Source: Tubulanus polymorphus (lineage: Eukaryota; Nemertea; Palaeonemertea; Tubulaniformes; Tubulanidae). From it: a stretch of 64,000 bases of DNA. Made by a program: the position numbers and the translations under genes. Where the stretch lies: positions 21,532,450-21,596,449 of the forward strand of contig NC_134029.1 of the NCBI RefSeq assembly GCF_964204645.1, written 5' to 3'. The notes beneath the pieces were generated by a model, which made no database searches, had not been told where the DNA came from, and was given only the letters and a program-made list of their open reading frames with translations. Shown here one piece after another: positions 22,205 through 64,000 of this stretch. How positions within the stretch are numbered: position 1 is the stretch's first letter; the number at the start of each line of letters is the position of its first letter.

Positions 22205-23155
22205 TTAGCAAATTCCGATACAGGTAATTTTCCGCACGAAAAACGAACGTATTTCTTTACCGAGTAAAAGGTAAATGTAGAAATTGACCACATAATTGCA
22301 AGAATGGAGTTGCGAAAAGACGTTCAAGTAACTGATATGCGAGTTGGTAACTGGCAGAAAAATGACTACAGTTGATGGCATGGTTAGCACCGCGAAACTA
22401 ATGGACACCGTCACAAGCATTATTGTGGTTCGTTTCGTTTTTGACGATTTGTCGTCGGATGAAGCTATATTTGGTCCGACGAATAAATAGGATATGATTA
22501 CAGAATTGGAACAAACTATGAGTGTCAGCGGTACGATATACACGTAAATAACGTAAAATGTGAAATTGATCGTCTGATCGGCTAATTGAAAATAGCATCC
22601 CTGTAAATCGCTAGAGTAGTTCATCATCGTCATGTTGAAATAGCAGATCGGGCTGAAATTGACCAAGAATATGAAAATGATGACGGCCCGAGCGAATCTA
22701 GGGGTACAAATTGAGCGGGCGGTGAAGGGAAACAGCACAACCGCAACTCGTTCTAGAGAAATAGCAACTATTAACCAGGAACTGTTACAAGCTGCATATT
22801 GTAGTAATATCTCGAATATTCTACAGCCGGTTAACGAATTGAATATGTAAATAGGCGCAGAAATCGGACTTACGCGTATAAGAAAAAACTGTAACATCGG
22901 CAATAACATAGCACTGATACAATATAGAAAGTCGCAGACGGATAAAACGATGAGATAATTAGCGTAGGATAATCTTCGAAATCGACTGCGTATCATCACC
23001 AGAAAAGTCGACAAATTGCCAAATATGCCCAAAAACAACTGAATGGGCAGTAAAATTAAGGAGAACAGCTGGAATGCGCCAGTCTTGTTCTCAACAGACA
23101 TCAGGTTTATGTAACTGTTATACGGTCGTCCAATCTCGGCAAAAGATGAATTCAT
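22205..23155 (-). CDS. Class A (rhodopsin-like) GPCR, 316 residues, intronless
   Basis: Seven hydrophobic segments are visible. TM1 is FSLILLPIQLFLGIFGN, carrying the conserved GN. TM2 is ANYLIVLSVCDFLYCIS. TM3 starts at Cys in TGCRIFEILLQ and ends in SLERVAVV, so ERV replaces DRY. TM4 and TM5 follow (NFTFYVIYVYIVPLTLIV). TM6 is TTIMLVTVSISFAVLTMPST, and TM7 ends NFYIYLLLGKEIRSFF, so NPxxY is replaced by NFYIY. The N-terminus has sequons (NSS at 2, NKT near 23). It resembles the large protostome set of FMRFamide-receptor-like peptide GPCRs. The ligand cannot be named. Lack of introns suggests origin by retroposition or expansion of an intronless family. Confidence 0.9.
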   Translation of the reverse strand: MNSSFAEIGRPYNSYINLMSVENKTGAFQLFSLILLPIQLFLGIFGNLSTFLVMIRSRFRRLSYANYLIVLSVCDFLYCISAMLLPMLQFFLIRVSPISAPIYIFNSLTGCRIFEILLQYAACNSSWLIVAISLERVAVVLFPFTARSICTPRFARAVIIFIFLVNFSPICYFNMTMMNYSSDLQGCYFQLADQTINFTFYVIYVYIVPLTLIVCSNSVIISYLFVGPNIASSDDKSSKTKRTTIMLVTVSISFAVLTMPSTVVIFLPVTNSHISYLNVFSQLHSCNYVVNFYIYLLLGKEIRSFFVRKITCIGIC

Positions 23156-23541
23156 TATGATGAAGCTTTCAGCTCAATATATTTTTGATATTCAATACCG
23201 TGCATACATAATAGCCGAAACCAATCATATGAGTGATACTCTATTCGTGGTAATATTTTTATCGGGTGTTGGGGATATATTCGTAAAAAGTTTCGGTTAC
23301 GGTATATCTGAGAAACATGATATTCTGTAGCGAAAATGAAACGAGTCTGATGCAGAATATCGATTTAGTTTAGGAGTCATTGAATTACGTTTACTAAAAA
23401 TTCAATGAATATTCTGACAACACAGTCCATGTCTATACAAATCAAAAACTATTCCGCAATGGGTTAATCTATATAAACAAGAAGTTATACGTAAAATAGA
23501 TTTTTATTTAATTGAAATATTATTGTACTATGTACTTGATA

Positions 23542-41567: not shown

Positions 41568-41945
41568 GCATGCATATGGTTTAAACTTCGGTCAGAGTTA
41601 TTCATTAGCGGGTAGTCAATAGATTGTCAGGTATGCATGTATACTATGTAGTTTTGATATAATGCTAATGCAGAAATTTCTGTGAAAATTTTGGATGATT
41701 ATTTATATATTAAAGTCCTTCTCTGATGATAGAATCAAAATGGCTTTCGAGTCTCCACAGTGTAGATCATGGCATGTTAGGGTGAAAGCCCCAAAATCAT
41801 GTCATTTAGCGTTCCATTTCGTGAATGAATCAATGTATATATTCGCAATTAAATTCTCGGATTTATTTTTTCGAAAGATCCCTCGAAATTTGGAGTAATT
41901 GGAGTTAATCTGTTCATATTTTCCAGGGCATATACTGAGGTCATA

Positions 41946-44900
41946 ATGTCCGGTGATGCAGTGCACAGGATTGGAAACTATCCCGTGGTCATTTCCGCCG
42001 TATCCCAAGTCACAAACCTGTACGATACGGTGAAAAATACAAACGGCGTACTGAAATATACACTTGAATCAGCCGAGGTTGTTTCTGGAAAACTAACAGG
42101 AGCTACTGTTCCCGTAGTTACAACAAGGCTGCACGGAACAAGTAAGTTAGAAATATGTTCCTAACGTAATATTCCTCGTCGGAACCAACGAAGCTTGTAC
42201 ATGTTTGTTACATGAGATATTTGAAAAATCATTATCTGCTTTGGAGTTTATTTCTGTTCGATAAACGTTAATTACCTGGTTGCTTTCTAGTTGAAAATCT
42301 GGATAAAATTGCTTGTCATCAATTAGACAAATTAGAAAAGAATTATCCGATCGTTACTGAACCAACCGATAAGGTAAATAATTCGGATATTGTTTTGTTC
42401 TAATTTCCTTATACGAATAACTATTTCATCCGTGCTTCTTAACTTCACATTTACGAGCCATGGATAAAGAATGTATTTTCATCGTACAGGTTTTGGAAGT
42501 TCCATGGAAAGTGTACGAATCAACGTTGAAACCTACAGTTGATAGAGTATCTACAGTTTCTAAATACGGTCTGGACACTGTCGACGCAGTCACCACGTAT
42601 ACCAGCAATAAAGTTGAAAATGCGAAACATTTCACAACATCATCTATCGTTGATATGAAAGATTACAGTCTGGAAAAGGCCGTGCAAATCAAAGACTTTG
42701 GGATTCTGAAGATCGACGAGAAGCTGAAAACTCCAAATGGTCAGAAAGTAGCCGCTAAATTAGACTGTGTGATGGATGTTGTGGATCGGTACATCGATTC
42801 TTATTTTCCCGCTGCAGAAGGTAATCTAATGATATGCTAATTCTCTGTTCTGTTCGTCACTAAACTCTCCTAGGAAAAATTCTTGATCGTCGGTTTCATT
42901 GTCAAATTCTCGTGTACATAATGGTGTCAATTCGCCGTCACCGCGTGTCAAATACGTGCATGTTTGTCGTAAATGCCAAACGCTTGTTTGCACAGAATGG
43001 CCCAAAACTGATCTATATGGTTAATCTAAAGATTTCGCATGAACGGTCATTAGAATGATTGTTTGGTGCCGCTTTCAGCATGATACACCAGGGGATATGA
43101 TCACCTAAGATGATAATGCCTGATTACATTTGGTGCCATGACCACGATTTTTGGGTTCAACGGGTATTGCATGTTATTACGAACTATTCAATCAATGCCA
43201 CAAAAAAGGCCAGAAAAATTCAAGTATTTACCAATGAAATAATGAACAGGATACAGTTTTATTAGGAAATCGAATTCCAGAAAATCGTGTCCTTTGTAAA
43301 TCAAACGGTACTTCTGCATGCATACTTTGAATGGAAAACCCGCTGAAAATCTGACAGGGAAAATGTAGATTGCCAAAGAAAAAAATGATCGTCTACGTGA
43401 AATGATTGCAGTTGTTCCTATTTCGGACTTTGAATTCCAACAACTTGGGAAAATTGGACTTTGTTTTGTCGGTCAATTGTAATGTTTATTTTGTCAGGGG
43501 AGACAGGTCAACAACAAACCGGAGAAATGAACACAGTCACCCGCTTCAAAAGACTGAGCGCCAAAATCCAAGAACGCATTTTGAAACGAGCTTTGCATCA
43601 ACTATTGAACACCAGCAAAAGAGCCTCCGGAATTCTTACAGACCTAGTTCAAACTGTTGACCTGGTAAGGGGGCGGTCAATGATTATGAAAAAGCGAAAC
43701 CTTTCGCCCCCCACGACTGAAATCAATTCTGCCAAATGCATTATTTCAAAAAAGAACAAATGATATTTACCCTTTCGAATCTAGTCTACATTTCGTTCAG
43801 TTTGGTGTGAGTCAATAGATTTATAAACGACACGTAACATCCTTGTTTTGCACTCTAGATTCAGGACTTCAGACTGAACTTCGATAAAGCTAATGATAAG
43901 TTTTGGAGCGTCGTGCACGCAGTGAATGATTACGAAAATACGAATGAGTCAACACCTAAAAATCAGGTTTGATAATTTAAAATCGTCCAGAATATCGATT
44001 CATTGCGAAATACCCGTGTGTCTTCGAATTCTATGATAAATTTAGCTATTTTGGTTGCCTTATTTTACAATTAGAATCATCTGACAAAATTGAAATCCTT
44101 TGATTTTGTTTCGATCGTTTTGCAGTTCATAATTATTTCGATAATATTTCAGACATTCGAGCAGAAAGCCATCAAAAGGGTCCAGCAGCTTACTTACCTA
44201 CTTAAAATGAGCTTCACTGCGGGTAATGAAACAGTCATGAAATTCATTCCAAAACAAGTAGTGGCACTATGGACAATCGTGGCCAGATATACCGAGGATT
44301 TGTACCAGACCTTCAAAAATGTACGGTTCGTTTCTTTCTTTTGAAATTTTTTACCTTCATTCGCAGAACATTAAAAGAAAATTTCTATCGATACTTGAAA
44401 TTTCAGCAAACGAACTTTGATGAATTGTCCAGTCAGTTTTTGGCGAGTGTCCGCCAGAAGATAAGTCACGTAAATAGCATGCTGATACAAATGGCTCATT
44501 TGATTATGAATACATGGCCTATGAATAAACTAATACTAATGGTAAGTTATTGGTGATAAGCTTGGCATTTTGCCCCGACGAGCAACTAATTGCTACCCGA
44601 ATTTTCTATTGGTCGACCCATTTTTCGGAAACGAATTTGAATCAAATCGTATTTTCTTCGAAATTCACTAAATTCATTAAGTTTCGAATATTTCCATCTT
44701 TCACTTCAGAAAGAATCCATTTCCAAAGAGGAGAAACCAATCGTCAGTGAACAAAACGGGAATACGAACGGTGCTTTAGATCTGGAAATGCGCGAGGAGT
44801 TTCCAGCAGAGCAGAATGAGGTACAATTAGGCGATATGAAAACAATTGAAATCAATAAAGCTTGCACAAAATCCAATGCGGGAAATATTTCCGAACCGAC

Positions 44901-45573
44901 TCTAGATTTAGAAATGCAAGAAGAATTCCCGCAAATTGATATCAAAGAAGATGATGATGCGGATGTGAAAGAAGATTCGATGAGAAGTGAATTTGAAAAT
45001 ATCGACATATGGTTACCAGACACAGATGAGTTAATGACATATTCTGATATCAGTAGTATAGGTGAAATTCAGTGGGATGATTTGACTTTCAATGAAACCG
45101 CAGGCGAAAAGGAAGAACCGTCTGATCTAAATGGAAATGACAGCGGCAAGTCTGAAACGCAAACTGATCATGAACAAACTGTGTCTGGTAACTATGAGGA
45201 AAAAGTAGATGATAAACTAGAGGCAGGATGTTGCACCGAAGAGCCGTTAATAACTGAATTGGTTCAACGGAAGACAGTAATCGAGAGTCCTGTGATATTA
45301 GATAACTCGATACTTTCTACTGCTGCGGATGAAAGTACAGATCAATCTGTGATGCTCGAAGTGTTGGATCGAGCGATCGAGGTAGTCGAGAAGGTCAAGA
45401 TAGCTACTTCCGTATTGTCCGATCGGAATTCCGATTCATCGAGTGATAACCTAGCTTCATCCGATCACACCACCCTCATACACGAATGCTTAATACCTAC
45501 CTCAGCAATCTATGATCCTTCACAGCAGTTACCACCACCTCAGCACCAACGGCAATCTAATCAAGCCGAATGA
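41946..45573 (+). CDS. PLIN: Perilipin (PAT-family lipid droplet protein), long isoform, 683 residues, 8 coding exons
   Basis: Perilipins coat lipid droplets and control lipase access. Exons are 41946-42141, 42291-42373, 42490-42820, 43498-43664, 43859-43966, 44153-44320, 44407-44541 and 44710-45573. The N-terminal PAT-like region has NYPVVISAVSQVTNLYDTVK, then LDKLEKNYPIVTEPTDKV, matching the perilipin pattern of a short helix followed by LPILxxPTEKV. An amphipathic 11-mer-like stretch follows (VDRVSTVSKYGLDTVDAVTT), then VDRYIDSYFPAAEG, the counterpart of VDQYLPLTE. The middle helical bundle (RFKRLSAKIQERILKRALHQ) ends in PMNKLIL. The last exon adds an acidic, disordered 287-residue tail containing two copies of LDLEM(R/Q)EEFP. 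Using the downstream exon instead gives a 432-residue protein, close to vertebrate PLIN2/3. Confidence 0.85.
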
Positions 45574-47684: not shown

Positions 47685-50600
47685 TTAACACGCCGCCATT
47701 GTTATTCCTTTCTGTTTGTGGATATCGGATGGATTCAATTTCATCATCATTTGATGGCAATCTTGCAGCGAACGTTTATCGCCGAGACTTTTACAAACTT
47801 TCACCGCCTCCGCGATCATGTCGACCTGCTGCCCGGGCGACGACAGTACTTGCGTCGGTAAATGTCGACACGCCAGTAGTAAAGCTGCCGCGCGATCTCG
47901 CAGTTCGAACTTCGTCTCGACGATTTCAACTCGTTCTGAAATCAGATAATCAATGTTAGATATAGTTAAGTTTATGAATTAGGTACAAGAATGCTATAAA
48001 AATGAATACATGTAGCATACACAAGACCACTTGTCTCTGAACTTAAAACAACAAGTTCCTGCAGCACTTATCCTATAGATACATATTGTTTAGTTAACAC
48101 TTTAATAAAAATATTTCTAACATCTTTGAACAATCCCAAGCAATTTCTTGACTAGTTGATGCTGCCAGCTGGTGGCAGGCGTTGTTACTAAATGATAGTA
48201 AGCCGAATGAACGAAAGCAATCAAGAATTCTTCTCGCGGCAAATGAGGATCCGGACAAAGACTCTCGTATTTCTTCTCGGATTCAATTAAAATCTATTCA
48301 TAACTTTTTAAAATTCTATGGATGATGAATACACAATGAATTGAGCGATGAAGTTTTGACAGAGCTGTTTATGACGGGTTCGTTAGCTCACCTTTCTCAG
48401 CGCGAGATGTACTTTGTCTACGCCTGATAGTCCTGTCCAGTAATTGCTGCGTTTTACTTGGGTTCGCTCCGGCCATTAAACGCGCCGTTGCTTCGTGTAA
48501 GAAAACCTACAAAACGGAGACCGGTTAACTGCTTTATCAAAGTTGTAAAAACAGGATTTTCACAAATTTTCTAGTTCACGACGCTAATACTCACGCGATG
48601 TAAAGCTGGTTTCAGTTTCTGCGATATCTTTCTCAGCGTGTTCAAATCCTGTTGAAACGCCCTCTGCTCGGTCTGACAAACCGTCGTACTCGACACGCTG
48701 TCCGATTCTTTCTCTTGCTGCCAGATGGCGGTGCGAGTCATCAACAACCAGTCCGTTACGACCATCTGTACACTCTGCGAACCGAATGAGACTAGTGTAA
48801 TTTGATATTCGAATTAAATGCAATGACGCTCGAAACTTAAAACCTTAATTGTGTTAACTATCACGTTGCCTTTAATGCGAGATACATTTGACAAATTTTG
48901 AGTGCATTTCTATCCAATCATCATCACAATGAAATCTATAACAGAATGTCATCCTCCGCGTACCGAGTCATTCAGCGCGATGTCGTTAACGCTTTGTTTC
49001 TAGGATTGCACTGCAGATGCATCGCATGAATTTAAACAGAAATGCAATGCAACTACAATGCACCCGAGCTACAAACATGAATTCGTCTTCTTCGCCACCG
49101 TAAGCATTGTCATGCCTGAAATACTAACTGAGAGATGACCGTTGAGGTAAAACCTACCGGGTATAGATGTAAACAACTGCCGCACGTCGGGCTGATCAGC
49201 GAATTCTCCGAGCTGAAACTCTCGCGCAACAATTGTCCCGATTTATCGCATTGTTTCAGAATGTTGTATTCGTGCGACGATTTCTCATTCGTCAGAACGG
49301 ATTTCTTCGCTTTGAACGCCAACAATGCGCTTCTCGCTAACGGATCGCTGAAATAAAAATCGAATGGAATATTACAATCGTACATTTTCCATCATATGAT
49401 GCATTCAGTGTTCTCCATATGCTGGAATTTTTAAAGGGGTTGCATTATTACATTGTGGCTGCTGAAGTAGCTGGTTTTCGATACTTCAAAAAATACAGAA
49501 AATTTAAGCTTAATATTCATGTAATCTTCTATTTGATACATTAGCTCAATATATTTCAAAGTAATTATCTGCATTGATAGAATATTAACATCCATTCTGG
49601 TAGGGGCAGAATATATTTTATCAGGGGTGGCTGATTCTCACATGGGTGGATATAACCCCAATGAAACCTGCTGTGTACCTGTTGTTCTGTAGAACAGCCG
49701 GAAACGATTCGATGATAGGATAAAATCGGGCAGCATTTTTCTCATCACCCGTCAGCCAGTACGTGGCTACCGTTAGAACAGCCGACCACCATTTAGACGC
49801 GACATCACCCACTGCGTAAAATACACGATGATATTGAACAATACTGAATTACAGCCGCTGTACGGAGAACAATAAGAATTCAATTCACAGGCTAATAACG
49901 CGATAATAGCTGTTACAAAGCCAACAGCTGGTTTTAATAGAGACCTAGTAACGATATTCCCAGGTAGACTCAATGATACACAGTACAACGGGCGCTAATA
50001 ACAAGAGCTAGTTCACAATTAAACGAATACGACTTACAATGAGATGTAAAAGGAGTGCTGTAGTCATCGTCGGACTTTTTGTTGCTTTTCGTCGCCGCGT
50101 TTGCGCAGTCGGATAATAACTGTAAATACTCGATCACATCAGTAGATTCTCTGAAATGAATGAATATATTAAACAGACGTGTACACGTAGCATTCAGAAC
50201 AAGTAGAATTATACTATGTTCTAGGCTACCATGAATTTCCTTTAAATCTCTGAAAACCATAATTTTTTCATTTACAGAATTTTGTCTGGTAAAGTTTTAT
50301 TTAGATTAGGTTTGCGCTATAATTTTCAAATTGATCAATTCGCAGTACTGTACATAGCGGTAGTTAGACTTATCCGGAGTATTCGTTTATACTTACTTGC
50401 TATTGTCTGTAGAGCCGATGTTTGGTGTCAGAAGAGTGAACAATGAAATCTCCAGTAAATGTTCCCGATAGGCGCGGGTAACAAATGACAGCGGATTAGC
50501 TGAAACGTTAACATCATAACAATTGAAACACATTTCAATGTTAGTTCAAAATCATTTAACATAAGCCGCCATCACAAAAACGTTTTTGACCCTTTCCAAA

Positions 50601-53600
50601 TTCTGCATAAACCAGATTAAGCCGGGCTCCAATGGCCAACCAGTCACACTGGTCACAAATGGACATGGGCCAAATTTGGCCAGATGACCTAACTCATCGG
50701 AACACTCCAGGGCCACATGTCAAATTATTCCATGTGAATTCTAACTGGTTCTGTAAGCGATTTGCCTCAGTTAGTCACAGCATTGTTTTCAGTAACAATG
50801 TGAAGATCAGTTTCAACCAGGCCATATCGCCTCATGTGAATGCAGCTATTGTAAATGTAAGTGATACAGGTACCAGTCGACACACTTACCTTCATCACCG
50901 AGAAGAGTGAAGACTGTGTCACTACCGGTCAACGACCAATCACCATCCACGAAAAATCGATGTCCTTGCGGATGGCATAACCACTGCATCGACGACGGTA
51001 TAGTGCCGCCACCTAGCGTACAAATATGTCGTCCTTTACTCAAATAGTATCTCTGCCAAAGAAAAATAAATATACTCATATAAATTTTCAGAGAGGCTAA
51101 GCGCGTCAATTGGTGCAGATCGCTTTCTGATAAAGCTCTGTCCGTATTAAAGTGATTTCCCCGAAGACTGCCGCGAGTCTTCGGATTGTTGCGCGTCTAA
51201 CAAGTCGTGGATGAATATCTCCCCGAAAGTGTCGAGCATCCACAACACCAGCGAAAACATCAACAAACATATCACCGGGATAATATAGACTAATTCCGCC
51301 ATGTTGATCCGAACTGCTTACTTCACGAGTATCCCCCCTGAGCGCGCGATGTTTCAATTCAACAACAAGAAATCGCTACAGTTCGAAAAGATATACAACT
51401 AGTGAGTAAGAGAGTATCCCTAGTGAGAGAGAGTATCCCTAGTGCATAGGCTGTAAAGAGATATTTATACCGCAACTGTTTAACATCTCACAGCGCGGAG
51501 AACTATAAACCCCAGGGTCGTTGTTCCTCATTCCTATATAAACAAGCCCTACATTTACTGCACGTTATGTTATGTAAAGAAAAAACTCTTATCGTTTATT
51601 CGACAAGATTCTATATTCTCAAGGTCGTGGCGCAGATTTTGATGATTGGAAAGCTTCGGATATTATTCTTTTTTCTACCGTATGATTCGTACCTAAAAAA
51701 GATTACGGTAACCCTCGAAGAAACAAGTAATTATACCCAGGATGAGAGAGAGAGAGCATGCAGGAGGGCTGGAAGTAGTTTTAGCTGGGGATAATAAACA
51801 GTGATACTCGGGTGATTTATTCCTAACGAGGAGGATGAGTGTTAGAGAATGTAGGTATACAGTTTGTGCTAGTAGATATTGCTAGAAGATTAGACACACC
51901 GTAGTAAGGGCAACTAAATATCATTATCTAGAGGGGTCAGTTATTTATTACATAAGCAATAAAAGCCAGATTATCATTATCATCATCAGTTGTGAACGAT
52001 CTGTTGTTTTCTGTTATTTTATTATGTTCTCTTAATTCATCTACTTTTGGTATATCTAATTGTTAATATGTACATAACTTGGCCTACTGTCACAATTATC
52101 TTTTTGGTGTTGCTACAAATGTGCATCGTACCTACGCATTCTATCTAGTAAAATAGTCATATAATTGTTTTTAAAATCTGTATAGACTCTAATTCCATCC
52201 CCTTTTTTCCCTGATTTTTTGATGTGATTACACAAAATTTTCCCGAGAAAATCAGAGGTTTGTAGAATGTTACAATTCATTCATTTTTTAAATCTTTCGG
52301 ATTCCCTGAGTTTTCCTGGTCAGTGGCCAACCTGTTAACTGATTATTTTTTCTGATTCCCTGATACTCGTTTGATTATTGGCACAGAAAATTATGAAGCG
52401 AATGAGATAAAAGTATATACGTATTCATACCGAAATGATTTGAGAGGCAAATGATAGTTTAAATCTAATCGCTGCAGTAGTGTAGATCTCGGCCATCGTC
52501 TCGCGGGGTAGAGCAGAACCGGCCGCTTCGCCGAGGTTTATAGCGCTCAAACACAGACTGAGACCGCTCAATGCACCGTCGCTGATATGCCCTGAAAGTA
52601 CAAATCGAAGTCAAAGCTGATTCCTGATTTTCTACCCTTTGACCAGGTACGAATAAAACATAAACCCTTTCAGTGCGATTAAACCTATCTGCGGTGTATA
52701 GATATTATCAGTAATTGGTTTTTAGTCTAGTTGAAAGATGGCAGTACCTGTCAAACATAGCGAAATATAAGTAACTAACGAATCACTGCACTATAGGGGT
52801 ACAACACGTTATTCAACGCACCGAGGTGGAATTTTTATAAAAATCATCCCCAGCACTTTCGGGTATTGATCAGTTAGCACTGAAACCGTTGAACGTTACT
52901 TAGATTTACATAGTGTAATGTAACGGTGATATGAACGTTTTTCTTTGAACTTCTCTACAGCCCTAGATCGAGCAGTTTTACGCAGAGAAAGAATCAGCCC
53001 TAGATCGAGCCGTTTTACGCAGAAATGACGGAGAAAGAATCAATGTCATCGCGTCTCATTTTCCGACGCCTGTCTTTTACGCACACAACAATACCCTGGA
53101 TATACTCAGACAATAAACAGTACGAAATTCACCCGAAGCTACAGAAATTCGAAACGTAAGATTCATATGAAATTTTAATAAACCGAGACACTTCGTCGCG
53201 AGTCTTAGAAAGTAGAGAAAGTACTTTTTCTTTTTTCGCGTATGGCTAGAAAGCAGATTTATGAACTCGATGTCATCAATTATGCATGCAGACAGATTAC
53301 GGATGAACTCATTTAAAAGTGAAATCAGTTTAATTACTGAAGAGTGAAATTACGTGCGCACAGGAAGATGATCGCTATGGAAAATTCAAAGCTTTTTAAT
53401 GAAAAAATCAATCAATTTAAATAAGTCACGAACGCACCCGATAAAATCATAATATCAGAAGAGCTTTCAGGCAATAATCGATTATACCGAAAATCCAGGG
53501 ATCACAGAAAACCCTTGAATTCGTGTTCTAGCTGGCATTCAGCCAGCATTTATTGCCTCTAATGTATTTCTTCTTAATGATTATATCTAATTTTTTTCTC

Positions 53601-56600
53601 GAAAAATCTGTAGCTCATCACGAGCATCAAATACAAAGTTTTCATAATTAATGAGCTCTCTAGGTATAGATGCTTTGACATATTTCGCAATAATCTATAA
53701 AGCAATATCGATAGTCTAGTTAATTATAGCCGTTTCATGGAAAGTCCAACAACCAAAAGACATCCTTCGCAGTAAAGTTTAGCTAGTTATTCGTAGGCTT
53801 ACCTGTCAACTGCAGCTGGTTCAGTTTATGATAAACAATAGCCGCATCTCTAGCAGACGCCTTCACATCATCGAGGTCATCGCCATGGAAATAACCGCAT
53901 TTGCCAGTCATCCACCTTCCGATGTATAAGCGATGCAAAATCTGGCGTAAAACCTGCCAGAAACAGCTAGCTACCTGGTCGACTTTGGACGTAGGCAATG
54001 GTCGGCCTAACGACGTCAGACAATCTTGTAAATGTTTACTAGCTGATTGGTAATCGCCCTAGAATATAATAATAATAATCTACAGAACTTCATGAATATT
54101 TAGGGGTAAAACGTTGTTTACCTCGGAAAGTATAATAACTACATCAGTCTCTAGTATGAACCACATAGATTTTTAAAATCAGCCAATTATTTCCATCGTT
54201 CATGCTAATTGACTATTTCCGATTAAATCATCTTAAAACTTGACCCGGTTTAGCTTTCAATGAAATCCCACTTATTTTCAATGAACTCGAACAATTAGAA
54301 TTCATTGTAATTCATCGGGCCCTAGTCATTACGATATAATATTCAGCATACGTTACCTTGGCCAAATCGATATCGGCTTGTTTACGATACATCCAGAACC
54401 ATCTGCCCGATTTCGACTGAGGTTTGATCACCGGTTCACCGAATATCAGGATTCGCGCTAGAACAGCGATAACAATCGAACCGTTGACCAACCATAGCAA
54501 CATCGTCGGAATCAGCCAGTCCATCCATCCACTGGAGACACCTACACACAGAACAATCAGTCACTTGCAGACAATGACATCAAATATCTTCAAATAGTTG
54601 AGTTATTAGTCTTTCTCTTAAAATGGTCAAGGACTCGCAAAAAAGTTGTTTCGCACAAAAAAGTTAAACCTAAATTTGACCCTGCTTGACCCTTTCAGTA
54701 CAAATCGATGATTTGATAATACATCACACCACGGTGTATCATGCAATATTATATTAGTAGCTTAGGATACACTGCATCACAAGCTTCAGCGTTACGCCTT
54801 CTGTACTGGGGCGGGTTTCAAATTATCTCCGGCAGTTTAGGGCAAGAATTGGTCAGCCCTGAAAGGGTTAACATTTTTTTTCTACAAGGCCAACAATTTC
54901 AACGAAAGCATTTCACGCTTAAACTTTTATCACGAAACTCTTTTATTTTCGATTCAACTTCGTAGAGAAATATTTTCTCACCAATGTCGTCTTCGTAGCT
55001 GTTCAACGTACGACTTCCGGCGTGCATTTTCATGTAGTCCTGTCCGCCGAGATTTCCGACTGAGCCGAACAGCGAACCGAACGGATTGAACGCCAGAACG
55101 GCCATCATGAACACGCACAACACCATACGAGACCTGTCTAACATTCCCGTTAACGGTCTCATATCGGAATCTACAATATCGAAATTATTCGGCGTTAATT
55201 CAACGTTGCAGTAATAATGATAAATCTTCAGATTCTCGATTCATGTATATTTATAGGCGATTCGAACGTGTGTGTGATCGTACTGCCGAGCTGATCAGTA
55301 ACGCCGGTGGATGCTACGCAAATGACTAGTAAACCTGACAACGCATAAAGTATGATTACACCAGAGGTAGAGGTAGTTCGGTTATACGGCTTACTGGATT
55401 TTTAGTAAATTTCTTATAGAATATATGCGATTTAATTACTATCGGAAATCATAAACACTCAGGGGAATTAGGTAACGAAAAAAAATTGCTGTAAGAGCAT
55501 TTTAAAAGATGAAAGTCAGGGTCCAATTTTACAAAAAGGTTTTATCTCATTGTTAATTCAGTTTATCTTAAATCGATTTAGGAGTTTATCTTTTTATGTG
55601 AAAATGGGTTCACCGGCCAGTTGTATAATCATGGCTTTAACTTAAGACCAGTCTAGGATCTTCTCAGTCCAATACTAGCCAATCTAACAACTTAAGACCC
55701 GTCGAATTATTCAAGAGACCATTTTTGAAATCAAGGCTCGACTTGAGAAACGGCTTCGACAGTTTTTATACAAACCTAGCATTTCGACGTCGCTGGTTGG
55801 ACTCGGCGGTAAAGACGAACCGCTTCCCGACGAAGGCGAAGGTGTCATTCCACCATAGAACTCGGGTGTCGGCAACGCTTCACCCTCTGAAACGAGACGC
55901 GGATAATTCGATGATTATCAACGGCAAAGAAAGACTAACAGTAGAAAATCAATTAGGAATAAACGGTAAGCAGTTCAAGTGCATGAGTCATTAGAAAGAG
56001 AATGGGAGAGAACAATGGGCGAACACTTTATCGGCGCAAGTCGGGTTCATGGACAGTACGAATAATGATTTTTGTCAGCGTCAAGATGTTCGGCGTTCGA
56101 GGAAACGCGAGCGCAATTATCGATTCAGATGCGGACCACGAAAAAGGAGTAAGGTCAGCTAACGAGCAGTATTCGACCGGAGTACCGAATCGTCAACCGT
56201 GACCTCGCGTGTGGGCGCTGGTTCAAGTATACACGCTCACGAAACCTAACACGCGCAAACGAATTAGCAAGGAAGGGAGGTGACAGAATATAAATAACGT
56301 GAGATCGCGAAAAAGAAGGCTTCATTATCAGTCAATTAAATCAAAGAGAATAATGGTAACATTATCACTCCACACCGCCCACATCAGATTCATAATTACT
56401 CCCCACGAACAATACGCATATAGGAATCAGATACACCATCTTCTTCTCTCTCGCAAAGCATTCTATTTGTTAACGCAATTATTTCTAACTGTATAAATGA
56501 TAAAGGCTGCCAATATAAAAGCCGCATGTCGATCAATACTCAGCTGTTGTATTAACAGCCAACGCGCTGGTATAAACCCACATTATGGGGATATATTCAC

Positions 56601-59600
56601 TGAATAGACCTTGGGAGGCAAAATGAGGATAACCCTAATTGCATCAATTAACTTATATGTACCATGTATGACGAGCAACAGCAAACATGATACACAGCTT
56701 GTCTAATTGCCTATTTTCTCAAAATGGATGGAGCTGTAAAGAAGTTTTGGGAATTTTGCTCAAAGTTAAGGAGTTTCAAGCACCTTAAGGAGTTACTAAG
56801 GAATCGAGGAGTCGCAACCAGCCCGCAGTTCGTTCATCTATGAACCTAATTACGTTTTCTCTTCTTAAACCTTCAATTTTTTCCTCGATAATCAAATATT
56901 CAATTCGCTGTACGATTGTCGACGTAATGTCGCGGTTCAGGCGACGATACCTACCTCCCAATTTCTTGCGCAACAACTCGTTCTCCTGTCGCAACTGGTC
57001 ATTCTGCGTTTGCAGGAAATGTATGTAATCTATTGTCTTTCTGAGAACGGCCGATTTGTTCAACTGCAATACAGAAAAAATACACATAAATCAATGACAA
57101 GAGACACGTATCGATAACAGCTGCTGCGAATTCAAGAGTCAAGCGCACTTCAATCATTCGGCGAATCGCGTCATTCTTATTTTTATCAATCTCGATAAAA
57201 GACAATGTAATTATCGTGTTTGCCGTTTTAATTCTGCTTTCATCAGCAGTTTATCTGTAAACGATACGACACGCAGCAGCCAGCGACAACGTACAACGTT
57301 ATGGATCGGCTCTCATCAATATTATCGACAGCGCGAATGCAACGAGATATGGAAATAGAGAGAAATAGAGAGAGAGAGACTCTCTTCATAATTCTAGGAA
57401 GAACATTATCCGCCGTGCCTGGGAAATTCTTACACATAATAAAATAAGCAGAAATACCAGGGTTGTAGGTGCAACCTGCTCGTTATATGAACCAATTAAT
57501 CGAGTGCTGCGGCGTTTTTTGTATCTAGAGTTTCTGAACTTCCTCTTCTCTTAATAATGCATAGCATCTAAATTATCGCACATCATTTCGTTCGCTTTGC
57601 TAATTCCCGCTCAACGGTGAATTTGACAGATTTATCAATAACGCCACCGCCGCCGCGTACCAGGGTCCCGTAAAATATTCAAACGCGCGAAAGCCGCGTT
57701 CTCGGCGTTCAAGTATTTCATTTGATTAGCGCCATTGAAATTGATGTTACGAATGGAGAAAATATCGACCTTGAAATCAAACACACGACATTGCTTCATC
57801 CGTCCATACGTCACAATAAATCCAGGGATAAATGTCGTTGTGCTTTATTACCGCATTCGAGGGGTTTATGTCCTCACCTCTGAACACTTCGACCAGCCGG
57901 TGCCACGGTGTCAACATGGCCATTACAGCGGGCAGCTCTCCATCTCAAGGCAAACAGTATATCACCCGCAGTGAGAAGTGAAGCTCCGAGAGCTTTTTTC
58001 TCGTGTCAAACATTGCCTCGAAATTATTGACGGAATGAAAGGGAGGCAAAGTGCACGAGAACTTTGCGATATCGTTAAAGGTCAACTGACAGTCAGTATG
58101 ATTCACCTCGCTAAACCCACAGTGCATACGTCAAAAATATGCTCTTTCTTTCGAAGATATCTTTGTATTCAAAAGTGCCCATTTCTAAATATATGTCCAG
58201 GGTTCGTATTATTTGCAGCCTATGATTTTTCATATGTTTTCCAGGGCCAAATATCCAAATTTCCATAGCTATTAAATGACGTATAAGCTTATGCACGCAA
58301 AAAACAAATATTAGGCCTACACTAAAACATCATGCGAACCTAATTTCTAGGATTAGGATCATTCTAGGATTCCATAGGTTCAAACATAAAAATAACAGCC
58401 TTGAAAAAATTGCTAATTTCCATAACTTTGCCAGGATTTTCCGGACTGTTCGAACCCTGCATGTGTTGAACAGGTGAATCCAGCATAGTGATTCTCAAAT
58501 CATGACCATTGTTTCAATTCATAAAGCTTTAATTTGAAAAGCCGACTTGTCTAATGCATGGTTATGGATTGAGAATAGTCACTGATCTAAAAAAAAACAT
58601 CCAACCAAATCAACGGTATTGGAACTGAAAAAATGTCTTAGTACTACGGCTTGTTTGTCATGGGAGGTTGCAAATCCAGGCTTCCAGGGCACCCGCAAAC
58701 CATCAGCATCCAGGGCCCTACCTAAACACACAGTTATCTGGTACAGTATAATAATGTGGTGGCTTTTTATATAGGTCGGCTTTTTAATTATACCCGCTAC
58801 AACTAGAACTGAATACAGCAATCTAAACAAATGACTGTTATTTGAATACCGCATGAAATTGTTTTAATAATGCACTACATCGATGCAGGAAGCGATATCG
58901 AATTCAGCTGTGTAAAACATTATCCACGTAGGGATTCATTTTCATTAACGCCGGAGTACAACGCACCAATTATAACATGAAATCAGATTGGTTTACAAAA
59001 CCAGAAATCACAATCATCGAGCAACGCGAAATACAGCCTCAACACAACGAATACACTGCCTGCCGTGGCGGCCGCTGCTGCTGCTGCTGCTGCATACCAC
59101 CCGTGCCTGGGAGAAATTATAAACCATCATTAACTGACTGCCCTGCAACCTAGAACCAGTTCCAATTCATATAAAACATCAATTACGAGGAGAAAGATAA
59201 CCAACTGATAAACCAGAACGCGCTCCTCTCCTCGTATTAACAGTGAATGCCTATATATCTCATACATTCATGACATATCTCTATTGAGCTTCTGAGCTGA
59301 AGCGAGGGGAAGACAAGAGCAGCATTCATACACGGCACCATTGATTCAGGCAGCGGCTGACCTAAATATTCTACCAGGGACGTCTTAATACTACAGATAC
59401 ATAATACCCCGCGCGCTAAAACGACACACACACACACAACCCTGAAAATAAAGCCGCGTTTTATTATAACGACGACGAAAAAAATAAAAAGTTCACTGAC
59501 CTTCGCGACTTCTCCGATGACGATATTCTTCAATTCGATGATCTTATCGTTGATGCTCAATCGATATCGTTTTTCGATCGCGTTGTGCGCCGAACGTTTC

Positions 59601-62600
59601 TCGCCTTTAAACACCGGTCTCTGCTGCTGTTGCTGCTGTTGAACGGCGTTGAATTGCGCCTGAGCGGCAGACGGCGTAATCCTCGTAATCGGCACTTTCT
59701 CCAGCCCGGCGCCCATCGCGGTCGTCGACGTAACCGTCGGAGAGCCGCGTTTCGGAGTCGGAGCGACATGTTTGGCGACGTGTATTTTAGGTGTCGTCGG
59801 AGCCGGTTTCGCGGTGATTGTTTTTTCGACTACTCGCACCGGTATCGGCGGCGACGACGTCGTAGTACTGATTATCGCCTGTGTATTTCCTAACTGCACT
59901 GTCTGTATCGGCGAGGCGGTGGTTACCGGACTCGAGCCGATCGTGACGACCTGCGCAGTCGTAGCTGGTGCCGCCGATGCTGCTGCTGAACCGGCTTTGT
60001 TCGCAGCTGCTAGTTGACTCTGCAGTAATAGCTGCAATCATATAAACAAACCACGTACAAGGGGTTAATAAACACCGGCCAATCACCGGTCGGGATTATA
60101 TGGTCTGACTTTCTTCGAGTAATCCGATTGGCTGATCGCGACGAGGAATCAAATATATTTACGAGGGACTTGATGAGCGCGTAAACTAAATCACCCCGAT
60201 CTAGTAAAACTTTCTCACACTGGTTCCTCGATCCAGGACACCCTAAATCAAACGCGCTACATGCAACTCCATCAAATCATTATTCGAACAATTCATCCAT
60301 TCAAGGTTGCGCATTTCAAAGCGCTTAGCTCGTTATTGGTTCTTGTGCATTGAGGAAATAAATTCTTCGAAACCGTGAACAATAGGAAACCGAAATGCAC
60401 TAAAATCAGAAACCTTACTGCGCGTGAAAAAAACAAAAAATGTTGTAAAATCATAAATCGTAATCCTAATTTAGCATGAAAAAAAAAGAAGAAAACTTTC
60501 TAGAAAAATGGAAACGGAATTTCTATGTACAAAATCGGAAATAAATTGCTACGAATCACTATTCATTAAAATTGATCCGGCAAAACAGATATTTATACAG
60601 CCCCTATTCACATAGATTTTGGACGGTAATCAGAAATTTGATAGCGTCTATTAAACAAAGACAGATGGAAAAACATCCGTCGTAATCGTGCAAAAATTCC
60701 GCGCAAGGTCAGCAGCACTTTTTAGCTACAATAAGCCTGCACTTTTAACAGTCAAGACGTTTAGTCACATTGTCCACACAACGACAATGAAATAGAATTT
60801 CAATTACGATCATTTTTTCAAAAGTATTTTTTGGTGTCGAATAACTAAATCAAAATCTAGACCTGTTCGAAAATTGAAGTTCATAAAAACATTCAGAGTT
60901 TTTTAGTTTTTGTGGGCAATTTTTAGGAGCAATCCAAGACTCAACCGACATAAGGCTATATTGATTCAAACCTCACGATTGAATAAACCGGAAGGCGACC
61001 ACAATTTTTTTATGGGATACATTATATAGAATACATGAACTCCTCACAATCAGCCGTGTCTGGCCGGCCTATCTACTATGTATTTAGTCTGACAAACTGT
61101 TGTGAACTCGGTTTCACCCTTGACAAAGTGTACATTCAAAACAACTTCATACACAGGCAGACTCTCCAGGGTCCTAATCCTTATCCAGGGCACTTTTAAT
61201 ATTTTTGAATCCTCGCTGATCCTCAACAAAAATTGTACATATTATGCTAAGAGCAGCCAAACATACCGACATCTTAGACCTATCAACATTTTATGTCTTT
61301 TCATCACTATTTAAAGTCTATAGTATGGAGCGATATTTTTTTTAGGTATGATAATTCAACATGAACTATGAACATGAACAAGAAGCAAAGAATGATCAAA
61401 AGAATAAGAGCCTGTAGCCAGGCCGATGTATACTTCTTCAGAGATGGAACAAATTGCTATCAACATTCATAAACCAGATAGTTCTGTGGTGTTTAATCTA
61501 TACAGCTTATAGCTTATAACAGAGGATATTAGCACAATATCAACTGATAAGATGAAGGCAAGATTTTTCGATTTATACCGGTAGTTATCTACGGCTTACC
61601 CGGCGTGTCGGGAAGAATCCGAAATACACCCTACATTGACTCATAACAAGCAAACTTACTCGAAAGTTTATTGACGCCTTGAAAAATAACGCATATTATT
61701 GCTTGATATTGGCTACAATAAATCAATATTAAAGATCAATTAAGTCATTTTTGCATTGAGTATCAATACATAAATTGAATTACCCGACAACCAGTCTAGC
61801 CCAGATAAATTGATGATGTGCACATCTCAAAAAATCATTATTGAAATTTATCAAAAATAAAACAGAGTTATGAAATATATTTAATTACAAAATAAACGCC
61901 AAAAATTAACATGTAATTGTAATTTTAAAAGGCCAACATTGATACATGCATCTACACATTATTGTAACACTTTTATGCATCAAAAAATTCATAAGAAAAG
62001 TCATAAATGCTTCATGGCCTCAGGCCACAGGTCTGAGGCTGTCACGCGCAAATTCAATTCAATCTGGCAGGATATGGTTACTTGAGAAATTGTGAAAGAA
62101 TAGCGCTTGTAGACTCAATAGTTTTATAATAGCAAAACAAATCAAAAGCTGGTTCGCTTTGCTTATAGCTTAGTTTGCTCAGTGCCAACCAGATGTCAGC
62201 ACAAACTAGTCTAGGCAATGCAAGTGAATACCGCGAGTAGATATCTTGATAGGAAAATGGAAGGCCCAATAGATCTTTTGCTTAGAATGAATGAATGCAA
62301 AAGAATCAATAATGATAACCTAAGCGCTTTGAAATGTGCAACATTGAATGGTGAATTGTTCGAATAATGATGAGTTGTATGTAGTGCGTTTGATTTAGGG
62401 TGTCCAGGATCGGGCAACCAGTGTGAGAAAGTTTTACTACTTTAGTTTATCAATCCTTAATATTAATTTGTCAATGCCAATATAAAGCAATAATGATAGA
62501 CTAGCAGTACGCAGTGCCAGCTTATATTCTCTCTAATATCGCTCAAGTGCCTAAAAATTGTATCAAAATGCGCCTGAGAATTTTCAGAGCTGATTTTTTG

Positions 62601-63522
62601 CTTGGCACTCGCTCAGCGTGGAAACTTTCCTTTTTTAACTGAAGACCTTTCTATCAATTTCTTTGTGCGCCTGTCAGTCTGCCCCTGGGTACTGGACTGG
62701 ACAGCAGGTGAAGGACCCGGTTTTTATGGGCACATGTTATATGATTATCCCACACAGTCGCCACTAGTAGGGGAGATCACATACAATCGATTTATACACA
62801 TACTAAAATGCTCCTATTAAATTCATGACCAATGGATGGTTGGAAACGTTCTAAGTTCTAGGCTCAATAGCACCTAAAGCTTCCGCCGGTCTAGAACGAA
62901 TAAGATTAATAGAATGAGACACTGACCTGTTGTAACTGCTGTAAATTAACATGTCCTATATTTGGTTGTATTGTAGTAGGAGTGGCAGTTGTTGTAACTA
63001 TTTGAGGTTGTACTTGTTGTACGGACTGCAGAACTTGCTGTTGTTGTACGGCCGCCTGCTGTAGCACCGCAGCCTGCTGTTGTTGCTGCAACGCTTGTTG
63101 TAATTTCTGTATGAGTAATTTCTGCTGTAATTGCTGCAGTTGTTGGGTTTGCAGTAATTGTTGAACGTTGAGTTGCGGTTGAACTTGAATCTGCGGAATC
63201 TGTTGTTGTAAAGCGGCCTGTAGCTGCAGCGGTTGCAGCGTTACGTTCGGCGGCGGTTTCACCTCCAGCGGTTCCTTCGCGTAGCGCAACAAATCAAAAT
63301 TATCCAAACTGAGTTCCTCTATACCAGCTGCAGGTGCCGAAGAAGACAGCAGCGGTCCAGTAGATGTGGCAGTGGTCAACACTGGTGCGACAGATGCCGC
63401 ATTAGTCAATACAGGATCTAGGCCTGTTTCTTGTTTGATCAATGATGGTTCTGAATTATTATTGAGCTGCTCGTCAAATATATCGGCTGATTGGTTATTA
63501 TCCGTTATAAAGCTTATCATAT
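47685..63522 (-). CDS. SREBF: SREBF (SREBP), sterol regulatory element-binding protein, exons 2 to last, 1,127 residues
   Basis: Membrane-bound bHLH-zip factor cleaved in the Golgi to activate lipid genes. Exons are 63522-62927, 60031-59501, 57063-56955, 55886-55776, 55170-54982, 54541-54357, 54058-53803, 52591-52431, 51052-50890, 50499-50397, 50150-50038, 49811-49679, 49347-49158, 48774-48595, 48506-48392 and 47935-47685, all in frame. The N-terminus is acidic ([17 protein letters not shown]), then Q-rich. The bHLH has the SREBP-specific Tyr ([20 protein letters not shown]), followed by a zipper ([18 protein letters not shown]). TM1 follows [10 protein letters not shown], carrying the site-2 region (Leu-Cys after DRSR and an NP in the membrane). 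The lumenal loop has SRTLNS, a fit to the site-1 RxxL pattern, and TM2 follows at [16 protein letters not shown]. The SCAP-binding C-terminal domain is complete ([36 protein letters not shown]). The first coding exon is not in view. Confidence 0.97.
48117..48293 (-). CDS. SREBF: Candidate alternative last exon of SREBF, a diverged duplicate of the neighbouring exon
   Basis: An acceptor (GTTATGAATAG) is followed by an open frame beginning [12 protein letters not shown] and ending QRC-stop. [16 protein letters not shown], then [12 protein letters not shown], lines up with the adjacent SREBF exon (48392-48506: [12 protein letters not shown], then [11 protein letters not shown]), sharing F-x-H-x-A, Leu, Ser and Q-L at equal spacing. 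It is phase 0 at its start, so it fits the donor at 48595 but not the phase-1 end of exon 48506-48392. It would therefore replace that exon and end the protein about 58 residues later. It may also be a dead duplicate. Confidence 0.45.
   Translation of the reverse strand: MLIESEKKYESLCPDPHLPREEFLIAFVHSAYYHLVTTPATSWQHQLVKKLLGIVQRC
49003..49065 (-). ncRNA. mir-33: miR-33 precursor hairpin in an SREBF intron
   Basis: The reverse strand at 49043-49063 reads GTGCATTGTAGTTGCATTGC plus A, identical over its length to the animal miR-33 mature sequence as I remember it, with seed TGCATTG. About 20 nt later the other arm (GATGCATCTGCAGTGCAATC, 49003-49023) pairs with it, with a few mismatches and wobbles, to form a hairpin with a loop of roughly 20 nt. 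It lies in the 383-nt intron between the exons 49347-49158 and 48774-48595, in the same sense as SREBF, so it is co-transcribed with its host. In vertebrates miR-33a/b lie in SREBF2/1 introns and repress cholesterol export and fatty acid oxidation genes. The fly gene has the same arrangement. Confidence 0.95.
51147..51302 (-). CDS. Nested 51-residue single-pass membrane microprotein ORF in an SREBF intron
   Basis: The frame [20 protein letters not shown] continues [20 protein letters not shown] and ends in a short polar tail (KSL). One hydrophobic helix spans residues 4-24, followed by an amphipathic acidic segment. The start context is strong (CAACATGGCGG), and a TATA box (51461-51470) stands about 160 bp upstream on the same strand. 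It lies in the SREBF intron between exons 52431 and 51052. I see no poly(A) signal before the SREBF exon at 51052, so its transcript may read into that exon. It could be a separate small gene or an upstream ORF of a short SREBF transcript. I recognise no family. Confidence 0.5.
   Translation of the reverse strand: MAELVYIIPVICLLMFSLVLWMLDTFGEIFIHDLLDAQQSEDSRQSSGKSL
51461..51470 (-). promoter_or_regulatory. TATA box inside an SREBF intron
   Basis: The reverse strand reads GCGGTATAAATATC. It is the best core-promoter match in the SREBF introns and lies just before the membrane microprotein ORF. Two copies of a CACTAGGGATACTCTC block follow in the presumed leader (51410-51450). Confidence 0.55.
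52592..53802 (-). other. SREBF intron with a short tandem duplication
   Basis: It contains two copies of about 39 bp beginning CAGCCCTAGATCGAGC at 52957-53040, and near 52669 an AACCCTTTCAGTGCG motif like the ends of the piggyBac-like element at 54690. No RNA gene is seen. Confidence 0.5.
54690..54867. mobile_element. piggyBac-like MITE in an SREBF intron
   Basis: The ends are inverted: CCCTTTCAGTAC at the left and CTGAAAGGG at the right. The right flank is TTAA and the left flank TTGA, fitting a TTAA target site with one change. The 178-bp interior has no transposase. The open frame crossing it (54741-54965) is fortuitous. Confidence 0.6.
57064..59500 (-). other. SREBF intron within the bHLH-coding region
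   Basis: It holds only non-coding sequence and microsatellites: (GCT)n at about 59073-59093 and (AC)n at about 59426-59439. The intron splits the bHLH after VAK, before LNKSAVLRK. Confidence 0.5.
60182..60352 (+). repeat. Left arm of a long inverted repeat in an SREBF intron
   Basis: It contains AGTAAAACTTTCTCACACTG and GGACACCCTAAATCAAACGC, which recur inverted at 62285-62450. It may be one end of a 2.27-kb element. Confidence 0.7.
62285..62450 (-). repeat. Right arm of the long inverted repeat in an SREBF intron
   Basis: The reverse complement matches 60182-60352 over about 165 bp with scattered changes, including GAACAATTCAcCATTCAA and CACATTTCAAAGCGCTTAG. The sequence between the arms has no recognisable transposase. 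Confidence 0.7.
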
Positions 63523-64000
63523 CTGAAAAAATACAAAAGAGATTTGTATTCTAAATTTCCATATTCTGCATAGACCGTTGTTTCAGAACAGAATCAAGGT
63601 GCTTGATAATGATTCTTCTTCAGGTGCTGTGCTGGGACCAGTTGCTCAGTTGGTTAAAGATAACCGGTGGACAAATACTGTAGTACCGTAACAATGAACT
63701 TTTGTCACTATGTCATATCTACAGATCTACTGCTGTAGGCTAACCGACTTCTTGAACAACTGGTCCAAGGTCAAGGAATTTATAAAAAGGAATCGAGCAC
63801 AAGGGATGGACAATAATTCGAGTTGACATCATCTGCAGTTTGGAGGAAATTTGAGGCCCTTGCAAATAATCGTATAGGCCTATTCAATTTACAGATCTAA
63901 ATCATTACTGACATTATACTAGTTAACAAGAAGGAATGATGATGTACAAGTGGTACTGGTGGTAGGCCTAATCTAATCCAGTTCTTTAGATTGGCAACAT
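63523..64000. other. SREBF upstream intron, right edge of window
   Basis: This is the intron before SREBF exon 2, whose acceptor TTTTTTCAG is at 63523-63531. It contains the transposon copy at 63633-63767. The first SREBF exon is not found here. Confidence 0.6.
63633..63767. mobile_element. MITE with CCAGTTGCTCAGTTGG ends, copy 2
   Basis: Left end GGGACCAGTTGCTCAGTTGG and right end GAACAACTGGTCC. The interior shares TTTGTCACTATGTCA with the copy at 28690-28813. Confidence 0.65.

Follow-up and report, generated by a model that had tools for sequence, protein, structure and literature searches.

The window, by which we mean the whole 64-kb stretch of DNA that was analyzed, contains a miR-33 hairpin in an intron of an SREBF gene, on the same strand as its host and in a single copy. 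We consider it highly probable that the hairpin represents the lophotrochozoan ortholog of the miR-33 gene, located in the SREBF intron that is followed by three final exons and carried on one transcript from the host promoter. Under such an arrangement, the SREBF promoter would drive a single transcript that includes miR-33, splicing would produce the SREBF mRNA, and Drosha and Dicer would release miR-33-5p from the intron. With SREBP-driven lipid synthesis switched on, miR-33 would be made alongside and would be expected to act as a brake on genes of lipid catabolism and export. By analogy with oyster and vertebrates, we infer that miR-33 is processed and co-expressed with SREBF.

Host gene and position of the intron

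The SREBF model has 16 coding exons on the minus strand (63522-47685) that encode 1127 amino acids within the window. From splice-site reading of the minus strand, all internal junctions are AG/GT and the exons form one continuous frame. At least one additional 5' exon, including the first coding exon, probably lies beyond the window end at 64000. The features of the gene are as follows.

47685-63522, minus strand: SREBF gene, 16 coding exons (1127 aa), from AG/GT junctions and a single frame
56955-60031, minus strand: bHLH-zipper exons (60031-59501 and 57063-56955), from Pfam HLH and PDB 1am9
49158-49347, minus strand: exon directly upstream of the miR-33 intron (ends ...SCLHLYP), from splice reconstruction
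48775-49157, minus strand: host intron, 383 nt, GTAGGT...GCAG, phase 0, from splice reconstruction with the frame open across the junction
48595-48774, minus strand: exon directly downstream of the miR-33 intron (ends ...KPALHR), from splice reconstruction
48392-48506, minus strand: penultimate coding exon, from splice reconstruction
47685-47935, minus strand: last coding exon and stop codon, from splice reconstruction

In the predicted protein, an N-terminal region rich in glutamine is followed by a bHLH-zipper, then by two hydrophobic segments, and finally by a long C-terminal region. In the PDB, the first bHLH exon matches human SREBP-1a alone (1am9; E = 5.9e-12), and the spliced bHLH domain matches Pfam HLH (E = 5.6e-15). 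The basic region holds the tyrosine (EKRYR) that is a feature of SREBP-type proteins. Following the hydrophobic segments, the frame continues for ∼580 amino acids. This C-terminal half matches no Pfam, NCBIfam, or PDB model, and we take it and the region of the hydrophobic segments to resemble SREBP. The orthology of this half is therefore argued from continuity of the frame and from its resemblance to SREBP sequence.

Hairpin and host gene are both on the minus strand, and miR-33 is thus sense-oriented in SREBF. The donor is 94 nt from the start of the mature sequence, the end of the hairpin is 228 nt from the acceptor, and three coding exons follow the intron. Likewise, in pig SREBF1, which has 19 exons, miR-33b is in intron 16 and three exons are left after it (PMC3929038). 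On the basis of this exon count, the miR-33 intron here is likely homologous to the third-from-last intron of mammals. Host gene and sense orientation are also shared with the vertebrate pairs of miR-33a with SREBF2 (intron 16) and miR-33b with SREBF1 (intron 16 in pig, 17 in human numbering), and miR-33 is in intron 16 of both chicken SREBF2 (PMC3953336) and rabbitfish srebp1 (PMC5027541).

Location in a host gene could be merely positional, with miR-33 transcribed from its own promoter within SREBF. Co-expression of miR-33 with its host is weak in oyster (r = 0.58; PMC4138081) and was not seen across chicken tissues (PMC3953336), which speaks for this reading. However, an intron of 383 nt with 94 nt ahead of the mature start leaves little room for a local promoter, and the same-strand intronic position is kept across distant phyla. 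We therefore regard an independent promoter as unlikely and favor transcription from the host promoter, while the oyster and chicken data suggest that co-regulation of miR-33 and SREBF may be loose.

Hairpin, fold, and arms

The original prediction had proposed a miR-33 hairpin at 49003-49065 in an SREBF intron in sense orientation, with its mature arm at 49043-49063. Hairpin, host, orientation, and position of the mature arm are all confirmed by our analyses; the hairpin coordinates had been given without a strand, and their location holds for a gene that we place on the minus strand.

49000-49068, minus strand: mir-33 precursor hairpin, from a full-length cmscan match to RF00667 and the fold
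49043-49063, minus strand: predicted mature miR-33-5p, GUGCAUUGUAGUUGCAUUGCA, from exact occurrence and agreement with the Rfam 5p arm
49003-49025, minus strand: predicted star (3p) arm, CGAUGCAUCUGCAGUGCAAUCC region, from base pairing to the 5p arm when folded (ends inferred)

In an Rfam cmscan of the 64-kb window, the match to mir-33 (RF00667) covers the full model (1-69) with 69.8 bits (E = 2.1e-14), and mir-33 is the sole family to reach its gathering score, which for RF00667 is 50 bits. When folded, the minus-strand sequence of 49003-49065 gives a duplex without large bulges (−30.1 kcal/mol, z = −5.84), and none of 200 shuffled sequences was equally stable. Its stem has 23 pairs relative to the 18 or more required, and fewer than 18 had been named as grounds to reject the hairpin. 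A 113-nt minus-strand fold that includes the lower stem reaches −38.6 kcal/mol, and this extension of the stem into the flanks fits the need of a Drosha substrate. The predicted mature miR-33-5p (49063-49043) occurs exactly once in the window, on the minus strand only, and its seed (nucleotides 2-8) is UGCAUUG. GUGCAUUGUAGUUGCAUUGCA is identical to human miR-33a-5p, and the mature sequence is thus shared with vertebrate miR-33a. Across the 268-Mb assembly, a genome-wide search found one mir-33 locus, the one in SREBF.

Conservation differs between the parts of the hairpin. In the Rfam alignment, almost the whole 5p arm follows the family consensus, whereas the star arm, loop, and flanks have diverged, consistent with the claim that the mature arm was kept while star arm and intron changed. 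Such divergence might be seen if mir-33 here were a relic that had decayed or was not processed, and so no longer yielded a microRNA. But a relic is not expected to preserve an unbroken arm of 21 nt over such divergence, and here the star arm still pairs with the 5p arm in a fold that is much stronger than those of shuffled sequences. A relic is therefore very improbable, and the hairpin is better read as an intact miR-33 precursor. That the functional precursor is instead the hairpin of the plus strand, as in some sense/antisense miRNA pairs, merits almost no credence: a short scan does match this strand to RF00667 (36.8 bits, E = 1e-6), but the score is below gathering and stems from the palindromic nature of the hairpin, the fold is far weaker (−17 kcal/mol, z = −2.9), and the mature arm is read on the minus strand alone.

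Lophotrochozoan affiliation and known host arrangements

The Hox genes identify the genome as lophotrochozoan, as had been proposed, because the cluster includes Lox5, Lox4, and Lox2 (the use of these genes for taxon assignment follows PMC5831810). A homeodomain search located ten genes (L002-L010, L013) that are collinear and in one orientation across 316 kb (G000:C6:5318231-5634756). Based on the homeodomain and flanking residues, their order is lab, pb, Hox3, Dfd, Scr, Lox5, Antp, Lox4, Lox2, and Post, apparently an intact lophotrochozoan cluster. The Lox5-type gene carries WKKENNLAKLNGP, and the two UbdA-type genes were read as Lox4 and Lox2. A Gsx-like and a Cdx-like gene (L011, L012) are 20 kb apart on C5. 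Mitochondrial COX1 had no match in the assembly and was uninformative.

The closest published parallel is in the oyster Crassostrea gigas. A small-RNA study from 2014 reported cgi-miR-33, with small-RNA reads, in an intron of SREBF-1 (CGI_10004108), with expression peaking at the pediveliger stage, and it already noted the human parallel (PMC4138081). In both cases miR-33-5p is in an SREBF intron of a lophotrochozoan, confirmed by sequencing in oyster and predicted from sequence here; the species differ, and the likeness concerns the host gene and the intronic placement. In the annelid Capitella teleta, miR-33 reads exist and miR-33 is annotated in MirGeneDB (PMC8915122), a likeness that concerns miR-33 itself. 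In Drosophila, the host of mir-33 is HLH106, the SREBP gene (PMC4593001, host table; PMC5027541), and here the likeness concerns the host gene. Relative to vertebrates, the hairpin differs in its star arm and loop, and the intron differs in sequence and is only 383 nt long; most mammals also have two miR-33 loci versus the one found here.

The original prediction was thus right that vertebrates and flies have the same host arrangement (PMC3929038, PMC3953336, PMC4593001, PMC5027541), but it overstated novelty, given the oyster locus with its small RNAs and the Capitella reads. The locus is a further example of an arrangement already published for vertebrates, Drosophila, and oyster. Its value is as one more clean, gene-modelled pairing of host and microRNA kept since the bilaterian ancestor, and as a further data point on when SREBP and miR-33 became linked.

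Candidate targets and age of the proposed circuit

A bilaterian-age SREBP/miR-33 circuit had also been proposed. The ancient host arrangement stands, but the circuit was overstated, because a circuit needs targets and what the locus supports is the arrangement; seed sites in potential targets are weakly suggestive for one gene. For homologs of genes that miR-33 is known to target in vertebrates, we searched the downstream sequence for matches to the seed (CAATGCA; CAAUGCA in RNA). A CPT1-like gene (L072; G000:C1:23214000-23219000, minus strand), part of a tandem carnitine acyltransferase array on C1 (about 23.18-23.23 Mb), has two such sites, 808 and 1318 nt past its stop codon. One is an A1-type 8mer, CAATGCAA, and the other is CAATGCAC, both within 1.35 kb of the stop. 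In the PDB search the product of L072 matched the wider carnitine acyltransferase family only, and its C-terminus (VADDGYGVSYI...) points to CPT1. Under a first-order Markov null, the probability of two or more sites in this flank is 0.010, uncorrected and with several genes examined. Because of the number of genes, and because the sites are placed by distance from the stop codon and not within a defined 3' UTR, we do not treat this result as significant, and the sites are weakly suggestive that L072 is targeted by miR-33.

Sites near other candidates were few. Within about 3.6 kb, the 3' ends of the HADHB-like gene, the CPT1-like gene on C12, and three ABCA-like genes have no seed site. In a fourth ABCA gene (C4a), one site occurs ∼3.3 kb beyond the stop; the fifth ABCA-like match, a weaker one, has a site at +471, placed without an exon model. 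With no nearby sites, ABCA, HADHB-like, and the second CPT1-like gene were dropped as targets. A match to the carnitine acyltransferase family on C4, with a site near a polyA signal, was also dropped because its C-terminus resembles choline acetyltransferase, which is not known to be a miR-33 target. The genome search found no match to the C-terminal domain of AMPK alpha, another candidate target. Across the window, 12 seed sites were found versus 10.9 expected, which is no excess, and their absence from the SREBF 3' flank gives no sign of self-targeting.

It is conceivable, if doubtful, that both the host arrangement and repression of mitochondrial carnitine palmitoyltransferase (CPT1) by miR-33 are retained here, in which case the SREBP-miR-33-CPT1 relation would go back to the bilaterian ancestor. 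CPT1 offers a testable lead on whether the targets are as ancient as the host arrangement.

Other genes in the window include a perilipin-like gene (41853-45573, plus strand; PF03036, E = 1.7e-5, below the curated cut-off) that also has LEA_4-type repeats and whose 3' flank is free of miR-33 seed sites. This lipid-droplet gene is arranged tail-to-tail with SREBF, a master regulator of lipids. Just past it are exons of a cytochrome P450 (38461-40088, minus strand; PF00067, E = 1.2e-11), presumably of the mitochondrial clan of CYPs. An intronless rhodopsin-type GPCR is located at 22205-23173 on the minus strand (7tm_1, E = 1.1e-15).
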